NCBI GenBank assembly: GCA_016195825.1
Contig: JACPYV010000110.1
Location: 1 to 47,006, forward strand
Direction of reading: 5' to 3'
Length of the DNA stretch: 47,006 nt
From: Burkholderiales bacterium
GTDB taxonomy: Bacteria > Pseudomonadota > Gammaproteobacteria > Burkholderiales > Burkholderiaceae_C
Part shown: positions 34,604 to 44,514 of the stretch, one piece after another
How positions within the stretch are numbered: position 1 is the stretch's first letter
Layout: each line of letters begins with the position of its first letter
The notes under the pieces: generated by a model
The model's input: the letters and a program-made list of their open reading frames with translations, nothing else
Database searches by the model: none
What the model was told of the DNA's origin: nothing
Program-made: the position numbers and the translations under genes

Positions 34604-36982
34604 TCAGGTACTTGCCTGCCGGAAGGCCATCACGGCCTGGTTGCGCAGCGTGCGCAGCAGCGAGAGCTGCTTGTCGTCCAGACGCACAGCGCCGGCTTGG
34701 GCATGGTCGGCGTAGATCAGGCCCAGCGGGGCGCCCTTGAGCATCAACGGCAGCAGCAGGAAGCTCTGCGCGTGCAACTCGCCCTTGAACCACACGGGCA
34801 GCCGGGCGGCAATGTTGGCGGCGCGGGCATCCTGGATCAGCGTGTCGGCGCCCTTCAAGCAGACCGCGGCCAGCAGGTCGGGCGGCTGGCCGGTCAGATC
34901 CACCCGCAGCAGCGGCGCGAGGCGCTCCACGTCGTCGCCCACGCCCAAGCGGCCGGTCAGCGTCTGACCGCGCGCGTCACGCAGGCAGAAGATGACGCGG
35001 CGCAGGCCCAGCGCACGGTAGATGGTCTCCAGGATCATGCGCAGCACGCCGTTGAGCTGGAAGCTGTTGACCATCGCGTCGGTGATCTCCTGGATGCCGG
35101 CGGCCAGCAGCTCGCTGGCCAGGGCCGAGTCCGGCGGCGCGCCGGCCTCGGTGCGCTCCAACACCTGGGTCGGTGCCAGCTCGTGGGCGGTCAGCGAGTC
35201 ATGCACCGACGGCGCCAGCGGGGCCAGCAGGCGCTGCGCGCGCGAGTCGCGCGGCAGGCGCAGGTCCAGCGCCTCTGTCATCTGCGCCAGGCGCTGGCGC
35301 GCAGTGTCGGCGGCCTGTTCGAAGGACTCGGCCGTGACGCCCAGCGCGCGTGCATGCCGCTGGGCCAGCGCACGCAGCCGGGCGTGGGCCTGCTCGGGCG
35401 GCGTCTGCAGGATGAGGTCGGCCATGTCGTTGGACGCGCGGGCCAGCCAGCGCTGGCGCTCGGCCGCGTCCTCGATCAGCTTGGGCGGCGCATCGCCACC
35501 GGGGCGGCGCATCGCGCGCTGCAGGCTGTCCGGCAGGCCCCATTGCCGGGCCACGCCCAGGCCCAGTGCCTCGTAGCTCATGCCCAGCACCTGCGCAGAC
35601 GCAGCCGCCTCGCTGAGCGGTGGCGGCCCGCCGTCCACGGCGCTGACGAGGCGGCGCACGGCCTCGGCCTCCTCGGGGAAGTAGAACTCGGTCAGCGAGC
35701 GCCCCAGGTGGTGGAACATCGCGCACAGGAACGCCTCCTCGGCGTCGCGCTCGTTCAGGCACAGCTCACGCGCCAGCGACGCAGCCATCAGCGAGCGCAG
35801 GAAGTCCTCGCGCAGCCGCTGGGCATGGCCCTTGTTTTCCATGCGCTCCAGCAGCACCAGGCTCAGCGCCAGGTTGCGAATGCCGGCGAAGCCGATCAGC
35901 GCCACCGCACGCGACACGGTGCTGATGCCACCGCCGCCCGCATGCCGGTAAGCCGCCGTGTTGACCAGGCGCAGCAGCTTCTGCGTCAGCGCCACGTCCT
36001 TCAGGATCTCGTTGGACATGCCTGCCAGGCTCTCGTGCTCGGACTGCGTCAGACGCTGGATGCGGCTGATGGCATCCGACAGCGCCGGGAAGTCGCTCTT
36101 GTGGCGCATCCGGCGCAGCAGGAAGTCCAGCACCGGCGCGTCCTGCGCGTCGGCGTCGGGCTCGGCGACGGGGCGCAGCCAGGCCGCCAGCGCATCGTGC
36201 ATCAACGCGGCGCTGGGCCAGCGCGCCGTGGGCTCGCGCGCCAGTCCCCGCTGCACGATGGCGCGCAGGGCGTCATCCACGTCGCTGGCAAGGCCCGAAG
36301 GCAGCACCAGGTCGGTGGTCTGCACACGCTGGATGGCGCGCCAGGGGTCGCTGTCATGATTGAGCCGCTGGCCGGACAGCATCTCGGCCAGCATGACGGC
36401 GGCGGCGAACACGTCCATCTGCGGGTGGGGCGGTGCGCCGCGCGCCGCCTCCGGCGAGATGTAGCCCGGCGTGCCGACGATGCGGGTCGGCGTGTCATTG
36501 GCCGGTGACACCCGCGCCGCGATGCCGAAGTCCATCACCCGCGCCCGGCCGCGTGCGTCCAGCAGGATGTTGCTGGGCTTGAGGTCACGGTGCACGATGC
36601 CAGCGGCATGCGCGGCGGTCAGCCCGTCTAGCACGCCCAGCATCAGCGTGACGGCCTCGGCCGCCGTGGGCTTGGGGCCGGCGCGCAGCCGCTGGCTTAG
36701 CGTGCCGCCGCTGACGTACTCGAAGACGAGGTAGGAGTGCCCGCCCTGGGTGTCGGCCTCGAAGACCGGCACGATGCTGGGGTGGGTCAGCCGGCTGACG
36801 GCGCGGGCCTCATGCAGCCATTCGTCCACGCTGCCCGGCTCGGCCGCGGGCTTCAGCAGCTTGACGGCCACCTCGCGGTCCAGCAGCGGGTCATGCGCCA
36901 GCCAGACCGTGGCCGGCGCGCCCTCACCCAGACGTTGTAGCATCCGGAAGCGGCCCAGTTGGGGTGGCAGGTCGTCGGCCAT
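34604..36982 (-). CDS. Serine/threonine kinase-HDOD-GAF signalling protein
   Basis: A 792-residue soluble protein. Kinase domain, about 12-270: glycine loop LGEGAPATVWLA (third Gly replaced), VAVK with Lys41, the HEA Glu58, HRDLKPSN at 131-138, DFG at 151-153, SPE at 176-178. All catalytic residues are present. HDOD domain, about 285-520: LSDAISRIQRLTQSEHESLA, ILKDVALTQKLLRLVNTAAY, SRAVALIGFAGIRNLALSLV. GAF domain, about 640-790: MILETIYRALGLRRVIFCL, FLLLPLMLKGAPLGLIYADH. HDOD proteins are signalling scaffolds without the metal ligands of true HD phosphohydrolases. Start at ATG 36982, before the kinase fold. It follows the pseudokinase-HDOD gene after 13 bp. Confidence 0.9.
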   Translation of the reverse strand: MADDLPPQLGRFRMLQRLGEGAPATVWLAHDPLLDREVAVKLLKPAAEPGSVDEWLHEARAVSRLTHPSIVPVFEADTQGGHSYLVFEYVSGGTLSQRLRAGPKPTAAEAVTLMLGVLDGLTAAHAAGIVHRDLKPSNILLDARGRARVMDFGIAARVSPANDTPTRIVGTPGYISPEAARGAPPHPQMDVFAAAVMLAEMLSGQRLNHDSDPWRAIQRVQTTDLVLPSGLASDVDDALRAIVQRGLAREPTARWPSAALMHDALAAWLRPVAEPDADAQDAPVLDFLLRRMRHKSDFPALSDAISRIQRLTQSEHESLAGMSNEILKDVALTQKLLRLVNTAAYRHAGGGGISTVSRAVALIGFAGIRNLALSLVLLERMENKGHAQRLREDFLRSLMAASLARELCLNERDAEEAFLCAMFHHLGRSLTEFYFPEEAEAVRRLVSAVDGGPPPLSEAAASAQVLGMSYEALGLGVARQWGLPDSLQRAMRRPGGDAPPKLIEDAAERQRWLARASNDMADLILQTPPEQAHARLRALAQRHARALGVTAESFEQAADTARQRLAQMTEALDLRLPRDSRAQRLLAPLAPSVHDSLTAHELAPTQVLERTEAGAPPDSALASELLAAGIQEITDAMVNSFQLNGVLRMILETIYRALGLRRVIFCLRDARGQTLTGRLGVGDDVERLAPLLRVDLTGQPPDLLAAVCLKGADTLIQDARAANIAARLPVWFKGELHAQSFLLLPLMLKGAPLGLIYADHAQAGAVRLDDKQLSLLRTLRNQAVMAFRQAST

Positions 36983-36995
36983 GGGGCAGGTGCCT

Positions 36996-38777
36996 TCAGG
37001 AGCCGCCGCCACGGCTTGCCAGCCGGTCGCGCAGCGGCGACGGCGAGGCCGCCTGGGCGGGCGCAGGCACCGGTGGCGCACTGCCGGGCCGTTGCGTACC
37101 GGGGTTGAGCGCTTCCATGACCTCGCGCAAGCCGATGCCCAGCGCCTTGGCGTAGCGGCGCGTGGCGGCGTCCACGCCGGGGCGGCGGCGCGCCTCGGGC
37201 AGGCCCAGGGCGTCGATCAGTTCATTGGCCAGGCTGCAGGTCAGGCGGATGCTGTCGGCGTCGCTGCGCGGCGGGTGCACGGGCGCATCCATCGGCTGGC
37301 GGCGGATCATCTGCACCAGCTCGTCGCCCAGGCCCCAATGGCGGGCCACGGCGGCGCCCAGCGCGTCCAGGTCGCAGCCCAGCACGGCGTAGGCTGCAGC
37401 CTGCTCGCTCAAGCTGGGCGGGTTGGGCTGGTCCTCGGTGGGCTCGGGCGGCACCATGAGCTGGCGGATCTGCTGCGCGTCGTCTGGGAAGTGGTACTGC
37501 AGCAGCAGCCGGCCCAGGTTCTGCATGACGGTGATGAGCTGCACTACCTCGGCGTCGTAGCCGGCCGGGCGCAGCGCCTGGGCGACCTGGCCGGCCTTGG
37601 TGACGCGGGCCATCAGCTTGCGCAGCAGCTCGGCTGCCACCGGCTGCAGCGGGCCCGGCCAGGGCTTGAGCGCGTTGGCGGCCAGTTGCAGGCCATCCAG
37701 TCCCAGCATTTGGATGGCGCGCTGCATGTTCAGCACGGTCTCGCCTGCATGGCCGTTCTGTTTGAGCGCGTTGTTGACGCGGCGCACCAACTCCAGGCTC
37801 AGCGCCATATCCTTCAGCACCAGGTCGGACAAGGCGCTGGCGTGCTGCGCCTCCAGGCCCGAGCCCGCCGTGAAGCGGTGCATGCCGGTCGTGGTGGTGG
37901 GCAGGTGGCCGATGCGCTGCAGCTTGTCCATCAGCAGTGCGATGGGGCCGCCACTGTCGTGCGCGGCGGCCGTGCGCCAGCCGTCCAGCGCGCGCCAGAA
38001 GCTGCGTGCCAGGTGGTACCGCTGGCGCAGCTGCCGGTCGGTCGCGCGGTTGCAGATGGCGCGCAGCGGGTCAGGGATGGGGTGCGGTGTCTCCCAGCCC
38101 AGGCGCACCATCTCGCGCCCGGCAGGCTGCATCTGCTGCACGACGGCCTGCAGGTCGTTTTCCTCCAGCACCGGCTTGCCGCTGAGGATGCGGTTCAGCA
38201 TCAGACCCACGCAGAGCACGTCCTCTTCGGCCGACTCGCGCACGGCGCGGCGGGTGACGGCGTTGAAGTCGACAGTCGCTGGGAAGACTTCCTGCGCCAC
38301 CTCCAGGCGGATGAGGCGGACCTTGTCGTTCGCATCGATGATCAGGCTGGCGGTCTGGATGTCGCGGTGCGCGTGGCCGGCCTCGTGGGCGAAGGCCAGG
38401 CCCTCCAGCAGTTGGGCGATCCAACTTGCCGCGTCCAGCGGCAGCGGCGCGTTCTGGCGCGCCAGGCGCTCATCCAGTGTCTCGCCGAGTGCGCGGTCGT
38501 AAGCGACATAGGGCCAGTTCTCGACCTGGCCGATCTCGAACGGCACCGCCAGGTTGGGATGCTGCACGCGCTCGGCGCCCTGGGCCATGCGCAGCCAGTG
38601 CTCCAGTGCGAGCGCACTGTTGGGCTTGTCGCGAGGCATACACAGCATCAGCTCCTGGCCGTGGCGTTCATCGAAGACACGCCAGACCAGGCTGCGCGCG
38701 CTCTTGGACAGCAGGGCGCGCAGCTCGAAGCGGCCAAAGCTTCGCAGCGGTGTGGTGGCGGGGCTGGGATCGGGCAC
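36996..38777 (-). CDS. Pseudokinase-HDOD signalling protein
   Basis: A 593-residue protein. Residues about 12-290 have the kinase fold outline (FELRALLSKSARSLVWRVFD, HPNLAVPFEIGQVENWPYVAY, LLEGLAFAHEAGHAHRD) but key residues are gone: the glycine loop has no Gly, the VAVK Lys aligns with Cys46, HRD at 137-139 is followed by IQTAS so that Lys is Gln141 and Asn is Ser144, and the DFG position reads IRL. Residues about 295-540 are an HDOD domain (LSDLVLKDMALSLELVRRVN, IQMLGLDGLQLAANALK). The C-terminus is Pro/Ala/Ser-rich. The start is GTG at 38777. The gene is first in a two-gene operon with the active kinase. Confidence 0.88.
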   Translation of the reverse strand: MPDPSPATTPLRSFGRFELRALLSKSARSLVWRVFDERHGQELMLCMPRDKPNSALALEHWLRMAQGAERVQHPNLAVPFEIGQVENWPYVAYDRALGETLDERLARQNAPLPLDAASWIAQLLEGLAFAHEAGHAHRDIQTASLIIDANDKVRLIRLEVAQEVFPATVDFNAVTRRAVRESAEEDVLCVGLMLNRILSGKPVLEENDLQAVVQQMQPAGREMVRLGWETPHPIPDPLRAICNRATDRQLRQRYHLARSFWRALDGWRTAAAHDSGGPIALLMDKLQRIGHLPTTTTGMHRFTAGSGLEAQHASALSDLVLKDMALSLELVRRVNNALKQNGHAGETVLNMQRAIQMLGLDGLQLAANALKPWPGPLQPVAAELLRKLMARVTKAGQVAQALRPAGYDAEVVQLITVMQNLGRLLLQYHFPDDAQQIRQLMVPPEPTEDQPNPPSLSEQAAAYAVLGCDLDALGAAVARHWGLGDELVQMIRRQPMDAPVHPPRSDADSIRLTCSLANELIDALGLPEARRRPGVDAATRRYAKALGIGLREVMEALNPGTQRPGSAPPVPAPAQAASPSPLRDRLASRGGGS

Positions 38778-38926: not shown

Positions 38927-40390
38927 TCAGGCGGTCAGCTGAGCCCAGACCTTGTCCAACCGCTTCACGCTGACGGGCTGCGGCGTGCGCAACTCCTGCG
39001 CGAATAGGCTAACGCGCAACTCCTCCAACTGCCAGCGGAAGTCGTCCAGCCGCGCATCCCGCACACCCTTGAGCTCGGCCACGCGACGCGTGTAACGCTG
39101 CTCCAGCGGCTTGACCTCGCTCATCAGCTTGGCGTCACGGGCCGGGTCGGCACGCAGCTTGTCCAGCCGCGTGGTGATGGCCTTGAGGTAGCGCGGCAGG
39201 TGCTGCAGCTGGGTCCACGGGGTGTCGAGCGCAAAGCGCTTGGGCACCAGGCGTTGCAGCTGCGCGCTGACGTCGTCGGACACGTCCTTGGTCGGGCGCG
39301 AGTCCTTCAGCTTGCGGGTGGCGTTGGCCAGTTCCTGCAGCACTGCGTGCACGGCGCGGGCGACCTCCTGCGCGATCAGGTTGAGCCGGCTGCGGCCTTC
39401 CTCGATGCGCTTCTTGAAGCCGATGGGATCGGTCGGCAACGGGTCGGCCAGGAAGGCGCGGTCCAGCGCGACGCCGATGACCTGGTCGCGCAAGTCCTCC
39501 GCCGTGCCCAGGGCCATGTACAGCACGGACATGCGCTGCAGGTCGGGGATGTTCTTCTCCAGGAATCGCAACGGCTCCTTGAGCTGCAGCGCGATCAGAC
39601 GGCGCAGGCCGGCGCGGTGCCTCGCGGCGGCGACCTCGGGCTCGTCGAAGACCTCGATCTCGACGTGCGCGCCCTTGTCGATCAGCGCCGGGAAGCCGAT
39701 CAGCGTCTGGCCGCCCTTCTTCACTTCCAGCAGCTCGGGCAGTTCGCCGAAGGTCCAGTCCGTGTACGCCTGGCTGGCGTCACGCGCGGGCGCAACGGGC
39801 TTGACGATCTCGGCGCGGATGCCGCGTGCGGGCTGAGCTTGCTGGGGCTTGGGCGCCGGTTCAACCACCGGCAGCTTCAGCGCCGCCAGCGCCTGGAAGG
39901 CCGACCGCGCCTGCCCGCCCAGCTCCGCCTTCAGCGCGGCGAGCTGTCGGCCCTGCCCGAGCTGGCGGCCATGCTCGTCGACGACGCGGAAGTTCATGAA
40001 CAGATGCGGCGCCAGCTGCTCCAGCTTGAAGTCGTTGCGCTGCACGGCGATCTGGGAGCGATCCTTCACGGCCCGCAGCAGCGTGTCCACCAGACCGCCA
40101 TGGCAAAACGGCTGCAGTTCGACGAACTCTGCCACGAAGTCCGGCAGCGGCGTCAGCCGCGCACGCGGCTTCTGGTGCAGGCTTTTCAGCAGCGCCGTCA
40201 CCTTGGCGGCCAGCATGCCGGGCACCAGCCACTCGGCGCGCTCCTCGCTGACCTGGTTGAGCGCAAAGATGGGCACGGTCACCGTCAGGCCGTCGCGCGC
40301 GTCGCCAGGCTGGTGCAGGTAGGTCGCCGCACAGTCCACACCGCCCAGGCGGATGACCTTGGGGAAGGCCTCGCTGGTGACGCCCGACGC
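38927..40390 (-). pseudogene. hrpA: hrpA 3' part, separated by an in-frame TAG
   Basis: The 487 codons after the TAG continue in the same frame as the helicase part, with intact HrpA C-terminal sequence: AATYLHQPGDARDGLTVTVP, ALNQVSEERAEWLVPGM, SLHQKPRARLTPLPDFVAEF, and the C-terminal DRLRADPARD-like, RYTRRVAELKGVRDARLDDF and EELRVSLFAQELRTPQPVS. No frame change is needed, so the only lesion is the single stop. As read, this part would not be made unless the TAG is suppressed or translation restarts at a GTG at 40339. A base error is also possible. Confidence 0.85.
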
Positions 40391-42769
40391 CTAGTGGCGC
40401 ATCAGCTCGTCCTGGCTGAGCTGCAGCAGCTTGTCGTCGCTCTTGCTGGCCTCGCGCCACCACTTCAGCAGCGTGGCGCCGCTGAACACGTGCGCCGGCA
40501 GCTTGTCGTCGTAGAAGGCGTAGATCAGCTCGTCATCCACCAGCACGTCCTGCCGGCGCGACTTGTGCTCCAGCGCTTCGACCTTCGCGATCTGGCGGCG
40601 GTTGTGGGCCAGGAAGGGCAGCTGCCGCACCAGGTCTTCCGGCAGCTCGTCGTTGACGATGCCCTCACGGATGAAGATCTCGCGCGCCGCCTTGGGGTCC
40701 ACGCGGCCGAAGTTCACGCGCTTGTTGCTGTACAGAACGATCCCGTACAGCGTCGCCCGCTCCAGCGCCACGACCTCTGCGGCCTTCTTCTCCCAATGCG
40801 GCTCCAGCAGCTGGGTCTTGATCAAGTGGCCGGCGATGGGCGGCAGCCATTGCGGCTCGATGTTGGCGATGCCGCGGCCGTACAGGCGCGAGGTATCCAC
40901 CAGCTCGGCGGCCACGATCCAGCGGCCCGGCTTCTTGCTCAGGTGCGCGCCGGGGTGGCGGTAAAACTTGATGCCGCGCGCGCCGAGGTACCAGTCCTCG
41001 TCGTCACTCTTCTGGCCGATGTTGCCCAGCAGGCCGGCCAGCATAGACAGGTGCAGCTGCTCGTAGGTGGCAGGGCTCTGGTTCAGCCGCCAGCCGTGCT
41101 CGGCGATGACCGTGTGCAGCTGCGAGTAGACATCGCGCCACTCGCGCACGCGGCGTGGGCTGATGAAGTTCTCGCGCAGCAATTGCTCGTGACGGCGGTT
41201 GGACAGCTTGTGCTCCGTGCCACCGCCCTTGCTTTCTTCCAGCCATTTCCACAGCTTCAGGTAGCCGCTGAACTCGCTCTTCTCGTCGTCGAACTTCTTG
41301 TGCTTCTCGTCGGCGGCCTGCGCGGCCTCCATCGGCCGGTCGCGCACGTCCTGGCCGCTCAGCGCCGACGCGATGACCAGCACCTCCGATAGCGCCTCGC
41401 GGTTTTTGGCCTCCAGGATCATGCGACCCACGCGCGGGTCCAGCGGCAGGCGCGACAGCTCCTTGCCGAGGGGCGTCAGTTCGTTGGCGTCGTCGGTGGC
41501 GCCCAGCTCGGCCAGCAGCTGGTAGCCGTCGGCAATCGCCTTGGGCCGCGGCGGCTCAAGGAAAGGGAAGCGCTCGACCTCGCCCAGGTGCAGCGCCTTC
41601 ATGCGAAGGATGACGCCGGCCAGGCTGGACCGCAGAATTTCCGGGTCGGTGAACTTAGGCCGCTCGTTGAATTCCTTCTCGCTGTAGAGCCGGATGCAGA
41701 TGCCGTTGCTCACGCGGCCGCAGCGGCCCGCGCGCTGGTTGCTCGCCGCCTGGCTGACCGGCTCGATCAGCAACTGCTCGACCTTGTTGCGGTAGCTGTA
41801 GCGCTTCACGCGCGCCAGGCCAGGGTCGATGACGTAGCGGATGCCCGGCACCGTCAATGAGGTCTCGGCCACGTTGGTCGCCAGCACGATGCGGCGCTGG
41901 CCGTGGGGCTCGAACACCTTGTCCTGCTCAGCCTGCGATAGCCGCGCGAACAGCGGCAGCACCTCGACGCCGGGCGGGTGGTGTTTCCTCAACGCCTCTG
42001 CCGCCTCCCTGATCTCGCGCTCGCCGGGCAGGAAAACCAGCACGTCGCCGCCGCCCTCGCGCCACAACTCGTCCACCGCGTCGGTGATCGCGTTGTTCAG
42101 GTCGTACTCGCGGCTTTCCTCGAACGGCCGGTAGCGCTGCTCGACAGGGAACAGTCGCCCCGACACCGTCAGCACCGGCGCCGGGCCCTTGCTCGACGAG
42201 AAATGGTTGGCAAACCGGTCTGCGTCTATGGTGGCGGACGTGACGATGATCTTCAGATCGGGCCGGCGCGGCAGCAGCTCGCGCAGATAGCCCAGCAAGA
42301 AGTCGATGTTGAGGCTGCGCTCGTGGGCCTCGTCGATGATGATCGTGTCGTAGGCGCGCAGCAGCGGGTCGCTTTGCGTCTCGGCCAGCAAGATGCCGTC
42401 CGTCATCAGCTTGACCGACGCCGTCTTGGCCAGCCGGCCCTGGAAGCGAACCTTGTAGCCCACCACGTCGCCCAGCGGTGTCTTCAGCTCCTCGGCGATG
42501 CGCTTGGCCACGCTGCTGGCGGCAATCCGCCGCGGCTGCGTGTGGCCGATGAGGCCGCCACCGTTGATGCGGCCACGGCCCATCGCCAGCGCGATCTTCG
42601 GGAGCTGCGTCGTCTTGCCAGAACCGGTCTCGCCGCAGACGATGACGACCTGGTGCTCGGCCATCGCCTGTGCGATCTCGTCGCGGCGCGCGCTGACCGG
42701 CAGCGATTCAGGAAATGAAATGGAAAGAGCCGGCTGAACCGGCCGGCTCTCTGTGCGTTCTGAACTCAT
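40391..42769 (-). CDS. hrpA: ATP-dependent RNA helicase HrpA, N-terminal 792 residues (truncated)
   Basis: A DEAH-box helicase core. Walker A GETGSGKT at 46-53, motif Ia, DEAH at 146-149 (IIIDEAHERS), SAT in IIVTSATIDADRF, LVFLPGEREIRE, ATNVAETSLTVPGIRYVID, and QRAGRCGR motif VI, then the winged helix/ratchet (RSSLAGVILRMKAL) and OB-fold region. Full-length HrpA is about 1,280-1,300 residues; here a TAG ends the frame at codon 793. HrpA acts in RNA processing and ribosome rescue in E. coli. The ATG is 39 bp from the divergent argA start; a hairpin lies in codons 7-15. Confidence 0.92.
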   Translation of the reverse strand: MSSERTESRPVQPALSISFPESLPVSARRDEIAQAMAEHQVVIVCGETGSGKTTQLPKIALAMGRGRINGGGLIGHTQPRRIAASSVAKRIAEELKTPLGDVVGYKVRFQGRLAKTASVKLMTDGILLAETQSDPLLRAYDTIIIDEAHERSLNIDFLLGYLRELLPRRPDLKIIVTSATIDADRFANHFSSSKGPAPVLTVSGRLFPVEQRYRPFEESREYDLNNAITDAVDELWREGGGDVLVFLPGEREIREAAEALRKHHPPGVEVLPLFARLSQAEQDKVFEPHGQRRIVLATNVAETSLTVPGIRYVIDPGLARVKRYSYRNKVEQLLIEPVSQAASNQRAGRCGRVSNGICIRLYSEKEFNERPKFTDPEILRSSLAGVILRMKALHLGEVERFPFLEPPRPKAIADGYQLLAELGATDDANELTPLGKELSRLPLDPRVGRMILEAKNREALSEVLVIASALSGQDVRDRPMEAAQAADEKHKKFDDEKSEFSGYLKLWKWLEESKGGGTEHKLSNRRHEQLLRENFISPRRVREWRDVYSQLHTVIAEHGWRLNQSPATYEQLHLSMLAGLLGNIGQKSDDEDWYLGARGIKFYRHPGAHLSKKPGRWIVAAELVDTSRLYGRGIANIEPQWLPPIAGHLIKTQLLEPHWEKKAAEVVALERATLYGIVLYSNKRVNFGRVDPKAAREIFIREGIVNDELPEDLVRQLPFLAHNRRQIAKVEALEHKSRRQDVLVDDELIYAFYDDKLPAHVFSGATLLKWWREASKSDDKLLQLSQDELMRH
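42726..42750 (-). promoter_or_regulatory. Terminator-like hairpin in the first codons of hrpA
   Basis: On the minus strand AGAGCCGG (42750-42743) pairs with CCGGCTCT (42733-42726) over a 9-nt loop, followed by TTCCATTTCATTTCC. This resembles an attenuator. It may also be chance in GC-rich coding DNA. Confidence 0.35.
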
Positions 42770-42808
42770 TGGACGCTTATTGTCCCGCAGCCATGGAGAA
42801 TCCCGCTC

Positions 42809-44158
42809 ATGACCGCGCTCAGCCTCGTCTTCCCCCACACCTTCGTGCCCTGGTTCCGCGCCGTGGCGCCGTACATCCACGCCTACCGCGGCGAGACCTT
42901 CGTCGTCGGCATGCCGGGCGAGCTGGTCGCTGCCGGCAAGCTGAATGCCTTCGTGCAGGACCTGTCCATCCTGCATGCGATGGGCATCAAGATCGTGCTG
43001 GTCCACGGCTTCCGCCCCCAGGTCAACGAACAGCTGCTCGCCAAGGGCCAAACGCCGCGCTACAGCCATGGTCGCCGTATCACAGACGCCGTCGCGCTGG
43101 ACTGCGCCCAGGAGGCCGCCGGCCAGCTGCGCTTCGAGATCGAGGCCGCTTTCAGCCAGGGCCTGCCCAACACGCCCATGGCCAACGCCACCGTGCGGGT
43201 CGTTTCCGGCAATTTCCTGACGGCCCGGCCGGTCGGCATCGTCGACGGCGTGGATTTCCAGCACTCGGGCCTGGTGCGCAAGGTGGACGGCGCGGCCATC
43301 CAGCGCGCCATCGACATCGGCGCCATCGTGCTGCTGTCGCCCTTCGGCTTCTCGCCCACCGGCGAGGCGTTCAACCTGTCGATGGAGGACGTCGCCACGT
43401 CCGCGGCCATCGCGCTGCAGGCCGACAAGCTGTTGTTCGTCTGTGAAGTGCCCGGCGTGCCCGAGAACCCGGACGACCCCGAGAGCCCCATCGACACCGA
43501 ACTGGCGCTGGCCGACGCCGACCGCATGGTGGCCAAGGCCAGCCCGACGCCGGAGCCGACGGACGTCACCTTCTACCTTCGCCACTGCGCCGAGGCCTGC
43601 CGCGCCGGCGTCGAGCGCTCGCACATCATCCCGTTCTCCGTGGACGGCGCGTTGCTGCAGGAGGTCTACACCCACGACGGCATCGGCACCATGGTCGTCG
43701 ACGAGAAGCTGGAAAGCCTGCGCGAGGCCAGCTCCGACGATGTGGCCGGCATCATCCAGCTTATCGAACCCTTCGAGCGCGACGGCACGCTGGTCAAGCG
43801 CAGCCGCACCGAGATCGAACGCGACGCCGAGCTCTACACGGTCATCGAGCATGACGGCGTTATCTTCGGCTGCGCCGCGCTTTACCCGTACGTCGAGGCC
43901 CGCACCGCCGAAATGGCCGCGCTGACCGTCTCTGCCGAGGTGCAGGGCCAGGGCGACGGCGACCGGTTGCTCAAACGTATCGAGCAACGCGCCAAGGCCA
44001 TGGGGCTGGACAGCATCTTCGTGCTGACGACGCGCACCATGCACTGGTTCATCAAACGCGGTTTCCAGCAGGTCGACCCCGAATGGCTGCCCGAGGAACG
44101 CAAGCGCAAATACAACTGGGACCGGCGCTCGCTGGTGCTGGTCAAGAAATTCAACTAA
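42809..44158 (+). CDS. argA: Amino-acid N-acetyltransferase (N-acetylglutamate synthase)
   Basis: A 449-residue enzyme making N-acetylglutamate from glutamate and acetyl-CoA, the first step of arginine synthesis. Residues 1-about 290 are the amino-acid kinase-like domain ([56 protein letters not shown]), the usual site of arginine feedback. The C-terminal part (from about 295) is the GNAT domain: [51 protein letters not shown] and WFIKRGFQ. No ARG box could be defined in the 39-bp gap to hrpA. Confidence 0.97.
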
Positions 44159-44178
44159 GCCCCGAACGGCCCGTCGAT

Positions 44179-44217
44179 ACGGCCGGCGCGCTAAAGTGCC
44201 GGCCGTTTTCTCTTTTT
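44179..44217 (+). terminator. Intrinsic terminator after argA
   Basis: ACGGCCGGC (44179-44187) pairs perfectly with GCCGGCCGT (44198-44206) over a 10-nt loop, then TTTCTCTTTTT. Strong. It separates argA from yggX, which needs its own promoter or readthrough. Confidence 0.88.
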
Positions 44218-44235
44218 GTGTCCCAGGAGTCCGCC

Positions 44236-44514
44236 ATGCCCCGCATCGTCCAATGCGCCTATCTGAAGAAGGAAGCCGAAGGGCTGGACTTCCCACCCTA
44301 TCCCGCGCACACCGAACTCGGCAAGAAGGTGTGGGAAAACGTCAGCAAGGAGGCCTGGGCGGCCTGGATGAAGCACCAGACCATGCTCGTCAACGAAAAC
44401 CGCCTGAACCTTGCCGACCTGCGCGCTCGTCAATACCTGATGCGCCAGGCGGAGCAGTTTTTCTTCGGCACGGGTGCCGAAGCGGTGGCGGGATATGTCC
44501 CGCCGGCGGCCTGA
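44236..44514 (+). CDS. yggX: Probable Fe(2+)-trafficking protein YggX
   Basis: A 92-residue protein of the YggX family, linked in enterics to iron handling and protection of iron-sulphur clusters from oxidation. Diagnostic sequence: [20 protein letters not shown] with the conserved Cys, [20 protein letters not shown] and [20 protein letters not shown], then EQFFFG. CAGGAG precedes the ATG. It follows argA at a terminator, and the hrpA/argA/yggX grouping is familiar in betaproteobacteria. Confidence 0.96.

Follow-up and report, generated by a model that had tools for sequence, protein, structure and literature searches.

Proteins with an HDOD domain are described as non-catalytic, and the passages on them report motility and attachment phenotypes in Xanthomonas, Pseudomonas and Campylobacter (PMC6543031, PMC11004494, PMC11813219); their mechanism is described there as not established. 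GsmR, HdpA, SadB and Cj0248 have HDOD domains without the HD pair, as do the two proteins P and K analysed here, but, unlike P and K, they are not described in those passages as fused to a kinase or pseudokinase (PMC6543031, PMC11004494, PMC11813219). Bacterial pseudokinases are experimentally largely unexplored according to a review of the bacterial Ser/Thr members, in whose main text HDOD occurs 0 times (PMC12599244). The same review gives allosteric activation of active partners as a known mode of action, and SelO and SidJ as bacterial pseudokinases with other activities (PMC12599244).

The MviN/Rv3910 pseudokinase with FhaA (in part after passages of PMC12599244) belongs to a membrane protein of cell-wall synthesis, in an operon not known to hold an active paralogue and with no known HDOD, in all of which it is unlike P. 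EssB/YukC is described there with degraded motifs and a short activation loop, both as in P, and a scaffold role (PMC12599244). In the GLW pseudokinases, as the review passages describe them, GLW replaces HRD and a transmembrane region follows the kinase domain (PMC12599244), whereas P keeps HxD and has HDOD after its kinase-like domain, and thus falls outside this class. The DLHK pseudokinases are described as keeping the HRD Asp, with changed ATP and metal motifs and often a helicase/DNA2 link (PMC12599244); the motif pattern of P appears alike, but the partner domain of P is HDOD, and our trees place P with K of its own family. From Hanks-type kinases of the PknA/PknB/Stk1 kind both P and K differ by the HDOD fusion, and P also because most catalytic residues are missing. 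EssB/YukC, a membrane component of type VII secretion that is not known to carry HDOD, differs from P in these respects. We found neither an HDOD pseudokinase nor a kinase fused to HDOD in the open-access literature searched (titles and the starts of abstracts).

The two genes lie co-directionally on the minus strand of the window (the whole stretch of DNA analysed, 47,006 nucleotides). The upstream gene, P (P0002, 36996..38777), starts with GTG and encodes a pseudokinase-HDOD protein of 593 aa, and a 13-bp spacer (36983..36995) separates its stop from the ATG of the downstream gene, K (P0001, 34604..36982), which encodes a Ser/Thr kinase-HDOD-GAF protein of 792 aa. P comprises a pseudokinase domain (residues about 12-270; 37968..38744) and an HDOD domain (residues 292-494; 37296..37904), and K a kinase domain with all catalytic motifs intact (residues 13-262; 36197..36946), an HDOD domain (residues 299-492; 35507..36088) and a GAF domain (residues 644-786; 34625..35053; 32.0 bits, Pfam cut-off 22.4). 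Pfam E-values were 3e-43 (Pkinase), 1.9e-32 (HDOD) and 2e-7 (GAF) for K, and 1.8e-12 (HDOD) and 2.5e-10 (Pkinase; 40.6 bits, cut-off 31.7) for P, which has the kinase fold expected of a pseudokinase and gave no Pfam match to GAF. HDOD (PF08668) exceeded its curated cut-off of 22.9 in both proteins (112.8 and 47.6 bits); in the structure model of P, pLDDT was under 50 across the first half of HDOD. Coordinates, strand, spacing and Pfam domains all agree with the original prediction, made from the sequence alone, of two co-directional genes 13 bp apart that both fuse a kinase fold to HDOD. The gene upstream of P, on the minus strand at 38927-40339 and 40391-44296, is in two frames in assembly GCA_016195825.1; we take it to resemble the helicase gene hrpA.

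In the window K carries Lys41, HRDLKPSN (131-138) and DFG (151-153), where P has Cys46, Gln141 and Ser144, and IRL (156-158). These residues had been read correctly in the original prediction, and the difference holds among relatives. Across 58 motif rows (the window and the 57 loci described below), the VAVK Lys, alpha-C Glu, HRD Asp, catalytic Lys, Asn and DFG of K were identical in 57, the sole exception being a gap in the split gene of locus L023, and the VAIK Lys and DFG of P were gone in all 58. Position 157 of P is Gly in 57 of these sequences and Arg in the window only, neither of which gives DFG. As a single-genome oddity, residue 23 of K, in the glycine loop, is Pro in the window versus Gln in the 57 relatives. 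The pseudokinase domain of P lacks the glycine loop, VAIK Lys, alpha-C Glu, catalytic Lys and Asn, and DFG, and its activation segment is about nine residues shorter, without the GTPxYxxPE motif; the HRD His and Asp are retained as H137 and D139.

The wider own-family set gave the same picture. The VAIK Lys, catalytic Lys and DFG Asp occurred in 0/61 P proteins and the alpha-C Glu in just 9/61. The HRD His was kept in 59/61 and the HRD Asp in 57/61, so that P has not lost all three motifs, and Gln replaced the catalytic Lys in 47/61, forming an HxDxQ loop; the first glycine of the loop, absent from P of the window, was present in 51/61. Each catalytic residue of K was kept in 59-61 of 61 proteins, with exceptions at L238 and L242. 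The K proteins of these two loci have degraded catalytic loops (HRNLKASN, and HRRLHPGN with DFS), and no P was among the matches listed for their genomes. By these residues K is predicted to be an active Hanks-type Ser/Thr kinase. The His-Asp metal pair is missing from both HDOD domains, which sets them apart from HD-GYP/HD phosphodiesterases: Gln-Asn replaces it in P (Ser in one row), and the second place is without Asp in 58/58 K rows. Leu292, Glu329, Trp373-Pro374-Gly375 and His429 are specific to the HDOD domain of P.

The collinear alignment of P and K spans 568 columns with 28% identity (E 2e-52), which makes them paralogues, and the trees support the duplication followed by specialization that had been proposed. 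P formed one clade in FastTree trees of the full proteins (1.0), HDOD only (0.997) and kinase only (1.0), and in a quick LG+C20 tree of HDOD (SH-aLRT 99; two P rows flagged long). In the LG+C20 tree P, the dead copies of genus g278 and the own-family K were together separated, at 98, from the 10 rows that represent other families; P may branch inside own-family K or beside it, as K forming one clade was not rejected (p 0.43). The stem of P was 0.89 long in kinase columns versus 0.36 in HDOD, and past this stem the two domains changed at about equal rates (ratio about 1). Sequence and trees thus support a scenario in which a kinase-HDOD-GAF gene would have duplicated in tandem to give P, whose kinase domain would then have lost its catalytic residues in a burst of change, with GAF absent and new residues fixed in HDOD.

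Other dead copies bear on this origin. In genus g278, K is followed by a second dead kinase copy that has kept HDOD and GAF. This copy joins P at 98 in the LG+C20 HDOD tree and shares with it Leu292 (3/3; Phe in 127/127 other sequences) and His429 (2/3; Tyr in 126/127 other sequences), without the Glu329 and Trp-Pro-Gly of P; its grouping with K of its own genus was not rejected (p 0.17), and the gene order is reversed relative to P-K. The GAF-bearing g278 copy possibly represents an intermediate stage of the duplication that gave P. A single duplication for all pseudokinase-HDOD copies was rejected: the dead second copy at L101 (G122, family f36; TLASSA loop, HGDLRPGN, NFG, Lys at the VAIK place) could not be joined to the P clade (p 2.5e-5), and it arose independently of P. 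Tandem kinase-HDOD pairs in genomes G014, G243 and G281 keep the main motifs in both copies, and loci L099, L100 and L102 hold tandem kinase-HDOD-GAF pairs of other families, again with the main motifs in both.

We examined how strictly the two genes are paired. A scan with P0002 gave 57 distinct loci, a set chosen by P; the record titles of 45 name Roseateles, Pelomonas, Paucibacter, Mitsuaria or Rubrivivax. K followed directly on the same strand in 57/57 (in two frames in L023). Among 399 sampled genomes of the own family, at least 136 carried P (from a reading of the rows and later loci), and K (E ≤ 1e-90) was directly downstream in 99 of these 136. P stood without an adjoining K in 37 genomes; three are contig ends (G785, G668, G779) and 34 stand, each with at least 1,066 bases after P and no K in them. 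The predicted neighbourhood was thus upheld in the loci selected by P and in most P genomes, but a quarter of the P genomes do not conserve it, an outcome that had been named as counting against the pair. A strict, dedicated P-K pair is ruled out by these K-less lineages.

K was sought at E ≤ 1e-30 in 35 genomes (one a contig-end case; many are drafts, and in 16 the first-look candidates were scored in part). On this search, one of the 34 (G767) has an intact K elsewhere, nine have a K-like HDOD-GAF protein without the kinase (G430, G548, G628, G755, G696, G559, G635, G449, G469), and in the remaining 24 no K-like HDOD protein was found at this threshold, only P or kinase-part matches (none at all in G476). 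The available flank of 19 of the 34 K-less loci holds purM- and/or dnaX-like genes. A purM-like gene also accompanies the pair at 11 of the 24 paired loci of the family and at 26 of the 57 first-scan loci, so that it is the corresponding position from which K is absent. Parsimony was applied to a tree of 62 P proteins, of which 28 come from loci without K. It gave 10 changes by the Fitch method, or 11 losses when the pair is taken as ancestral, compared with 20.75 on average and a minimum of 14 in 500 draws of shuffled labels. The underlying tree is a FastTree topology in which several branches are weak; the count covers 28 of the 34 K-less loci, and one of its events is an unlinking (G767, with K elsewhere).

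The converse also occurs, so that P and K are not always found together. Among the matches listed, K was without P in 45 of 148 K genomes; in six of the 45 the match to K lies wholly or almost wholly outside the kinase domain (G401, G757, G436, G698, G551, G171), and three carry the g278 dead copy. At L218, L219, L220, L221 and L244, K-like proteins have mostly or wholly lost the kinase and kept HDOD-GAF. HDOD is the part that persists, as the K-like proteins of several genomes have dropped the kinase and kept HDOD-GAF. Two tandem K-like matches in G043 (L257, L258) start after the kinase domain and hold only the HDOD-GAF part, and at L228 (2661-4049) an HDOD-like ORF unlike P, reading AFLHDFAE, lies directly upstream of K.

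P remains under selection. By the Nei-Gojobori method (own script, 16 close sequences, dS about 0.4-0.5 in domains), median dN/dS was 0.147 for the kinase-like domain of P versus 0.149 for the kinase of K, 0.158 and 0.169 for the two HDOD domains, 0.21 for GAF and 0.52 for the C-terminal tail of P. The dead kinase domain of P is constrained like the live one of K. The pseudokinase/HDOD rate ratio was 0.94 with K adjacent (33 rows) versus 0.98 with K not adjacent (17 rows; p=0.22), and 0.90 for the 11 rows of a deep clade without K, i.e. by this ratio no speed-up of the pseudokinase domain was seen after the loss of K. Natural selection maintains the dead copy, including in many relatives without an intact neighbour.

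We favour, at a probability of roughly 0.55, the reading that P is a catalytically dead protein that signals through HDOD on its own account, with the kinase fold as its control module and K as a frequent, dispensable partner. The main argument is the similar constraint on P with and without K: the neighbouring K appears to have been lost about ten times, with P still similarly constrained, which points to a P that is independent of K. In this model the dead kinase fold would serve as a non-catalytic control or interaction module for the protein's own HDOD output, so that P would signal via HDOD under control in cis. K, judged by its domains, would be a ligand-sensing active kinase, with GAF as the sensor and an HDOD output of its own, usually encoded just downstream. 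The 99/136 adjacency and the short spacer argue that P and K do something together. Where both exist they are probably co-transcribed, and they may touch each other, form mixed complexes or share targets. Motility and attachment, on which HDOD proteins act in other bacteria, are the first place to look for the output of P.

That P is instead a dedicated allosteric regulator or scaffold of K, its dead kinase domain docking on the kinase of K and switching it, had been the original proposal. The adjacency and shared direction (57/57 and 99/136), the common kinase-HDOD domain set, the equal constraint on both kinase domains and the precedent of pseudokinases that activate partners allosterically, as described in parts of the review (PMC12599244), are all consistent with such a role. 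However, the 34 of 136 P genomes without an adjacent K (24 of them without a K-like HDOD protein found), the 10-11 losses and the lack of relaxation of the pseudokinase domain after them leave it unsupported as the main role of P, and K without P in 45 of 148 genomes, among the matches listed, also speaks against it; we consider it unlikely.

It is more doubtful still that the pocket of P has been repurposed, either to catalyse a different reaction or to sense a nucleotide or ligand, through the conserved HxDxQ loop. The frequent His, Asp and Gln of this loop (59, 57 and 47 of 61) would fit, as would SelO and SidJ as precedents in the review passages (PMC12599244); with the first loop glycine, the kept HRD Asp leaves room for unusual catalysis or nucleotide binding. 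Against this, the VAIK Lys and DFG Asp are lost in 61/61, few proteins keep the alpha-C Glu and the activation segment is shortened, and the kept His and Asp can be structural. A decaying pseudogene hitch-hiking with K, as the degraded kinase motifs, stops counted within the match in 17 of 136 P rows and a P spread over two frames in L177 and L185 might suggest, is contradicted by dN/dS of about 0.15 in both domains, by the clade-specific fixed residues and by retention without K, and can be dismissed.

We would tentatively generalize, in the knowledge that the generalization may well fail: the kinase fold in these proteins would be mainly a non-catalytic switch for HDOD, with phosphotransfer optional, and the dead copy an independent regulator that outlived its active neighbour in about 10 lineages, a second dead copy having arisen separately at L101. 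Kinase-HDOD genes of bacteria would then span a natural range, from kinases that are active to proteins that serve purely as signalling scaffolds, and intermediates would survive today. The locus offers a conserved pseudokinase-HDOD family of known origin with its active parent. A possible intermediate that bears GAF, and sequenced bacteria that are natural knockouts of the parent, come with it, so that the service of the dead domain, to a partner or to its own output, can be compared between paired and K-less species.

At greater distances, in a sample of the order (399 genomes), P0002 (E ≤ 1e-25) matched in 107, for the most part in frames of roughly 800 aa; most of the frames fetched were kinase + HDOD + GAF. 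P itself (48% or more) occurred in 2 of these 399 genomes, both of its own family. P0001 (E ≤ 1e-55) matched in 23 of the 340 genomes sampled from the class, and in 7 of the 378 sampled from the phylum. K thus has a widespread architecture; all P orthologues seen belong to the own family. We found no relatives of P in the plasmid collection, and a generic kinase family was the only match in PHROGs. The catalytic loop is altered in two more kinase-HDOD groups, neither of which gave a GAF match: it reads HLDLNPNN, with DFD, in one (L113, L117, L119, L121) and HGDITPAN in the other (L109, L112, L123). Judged by these motifs, they are possibly more dead or unusual kinases.
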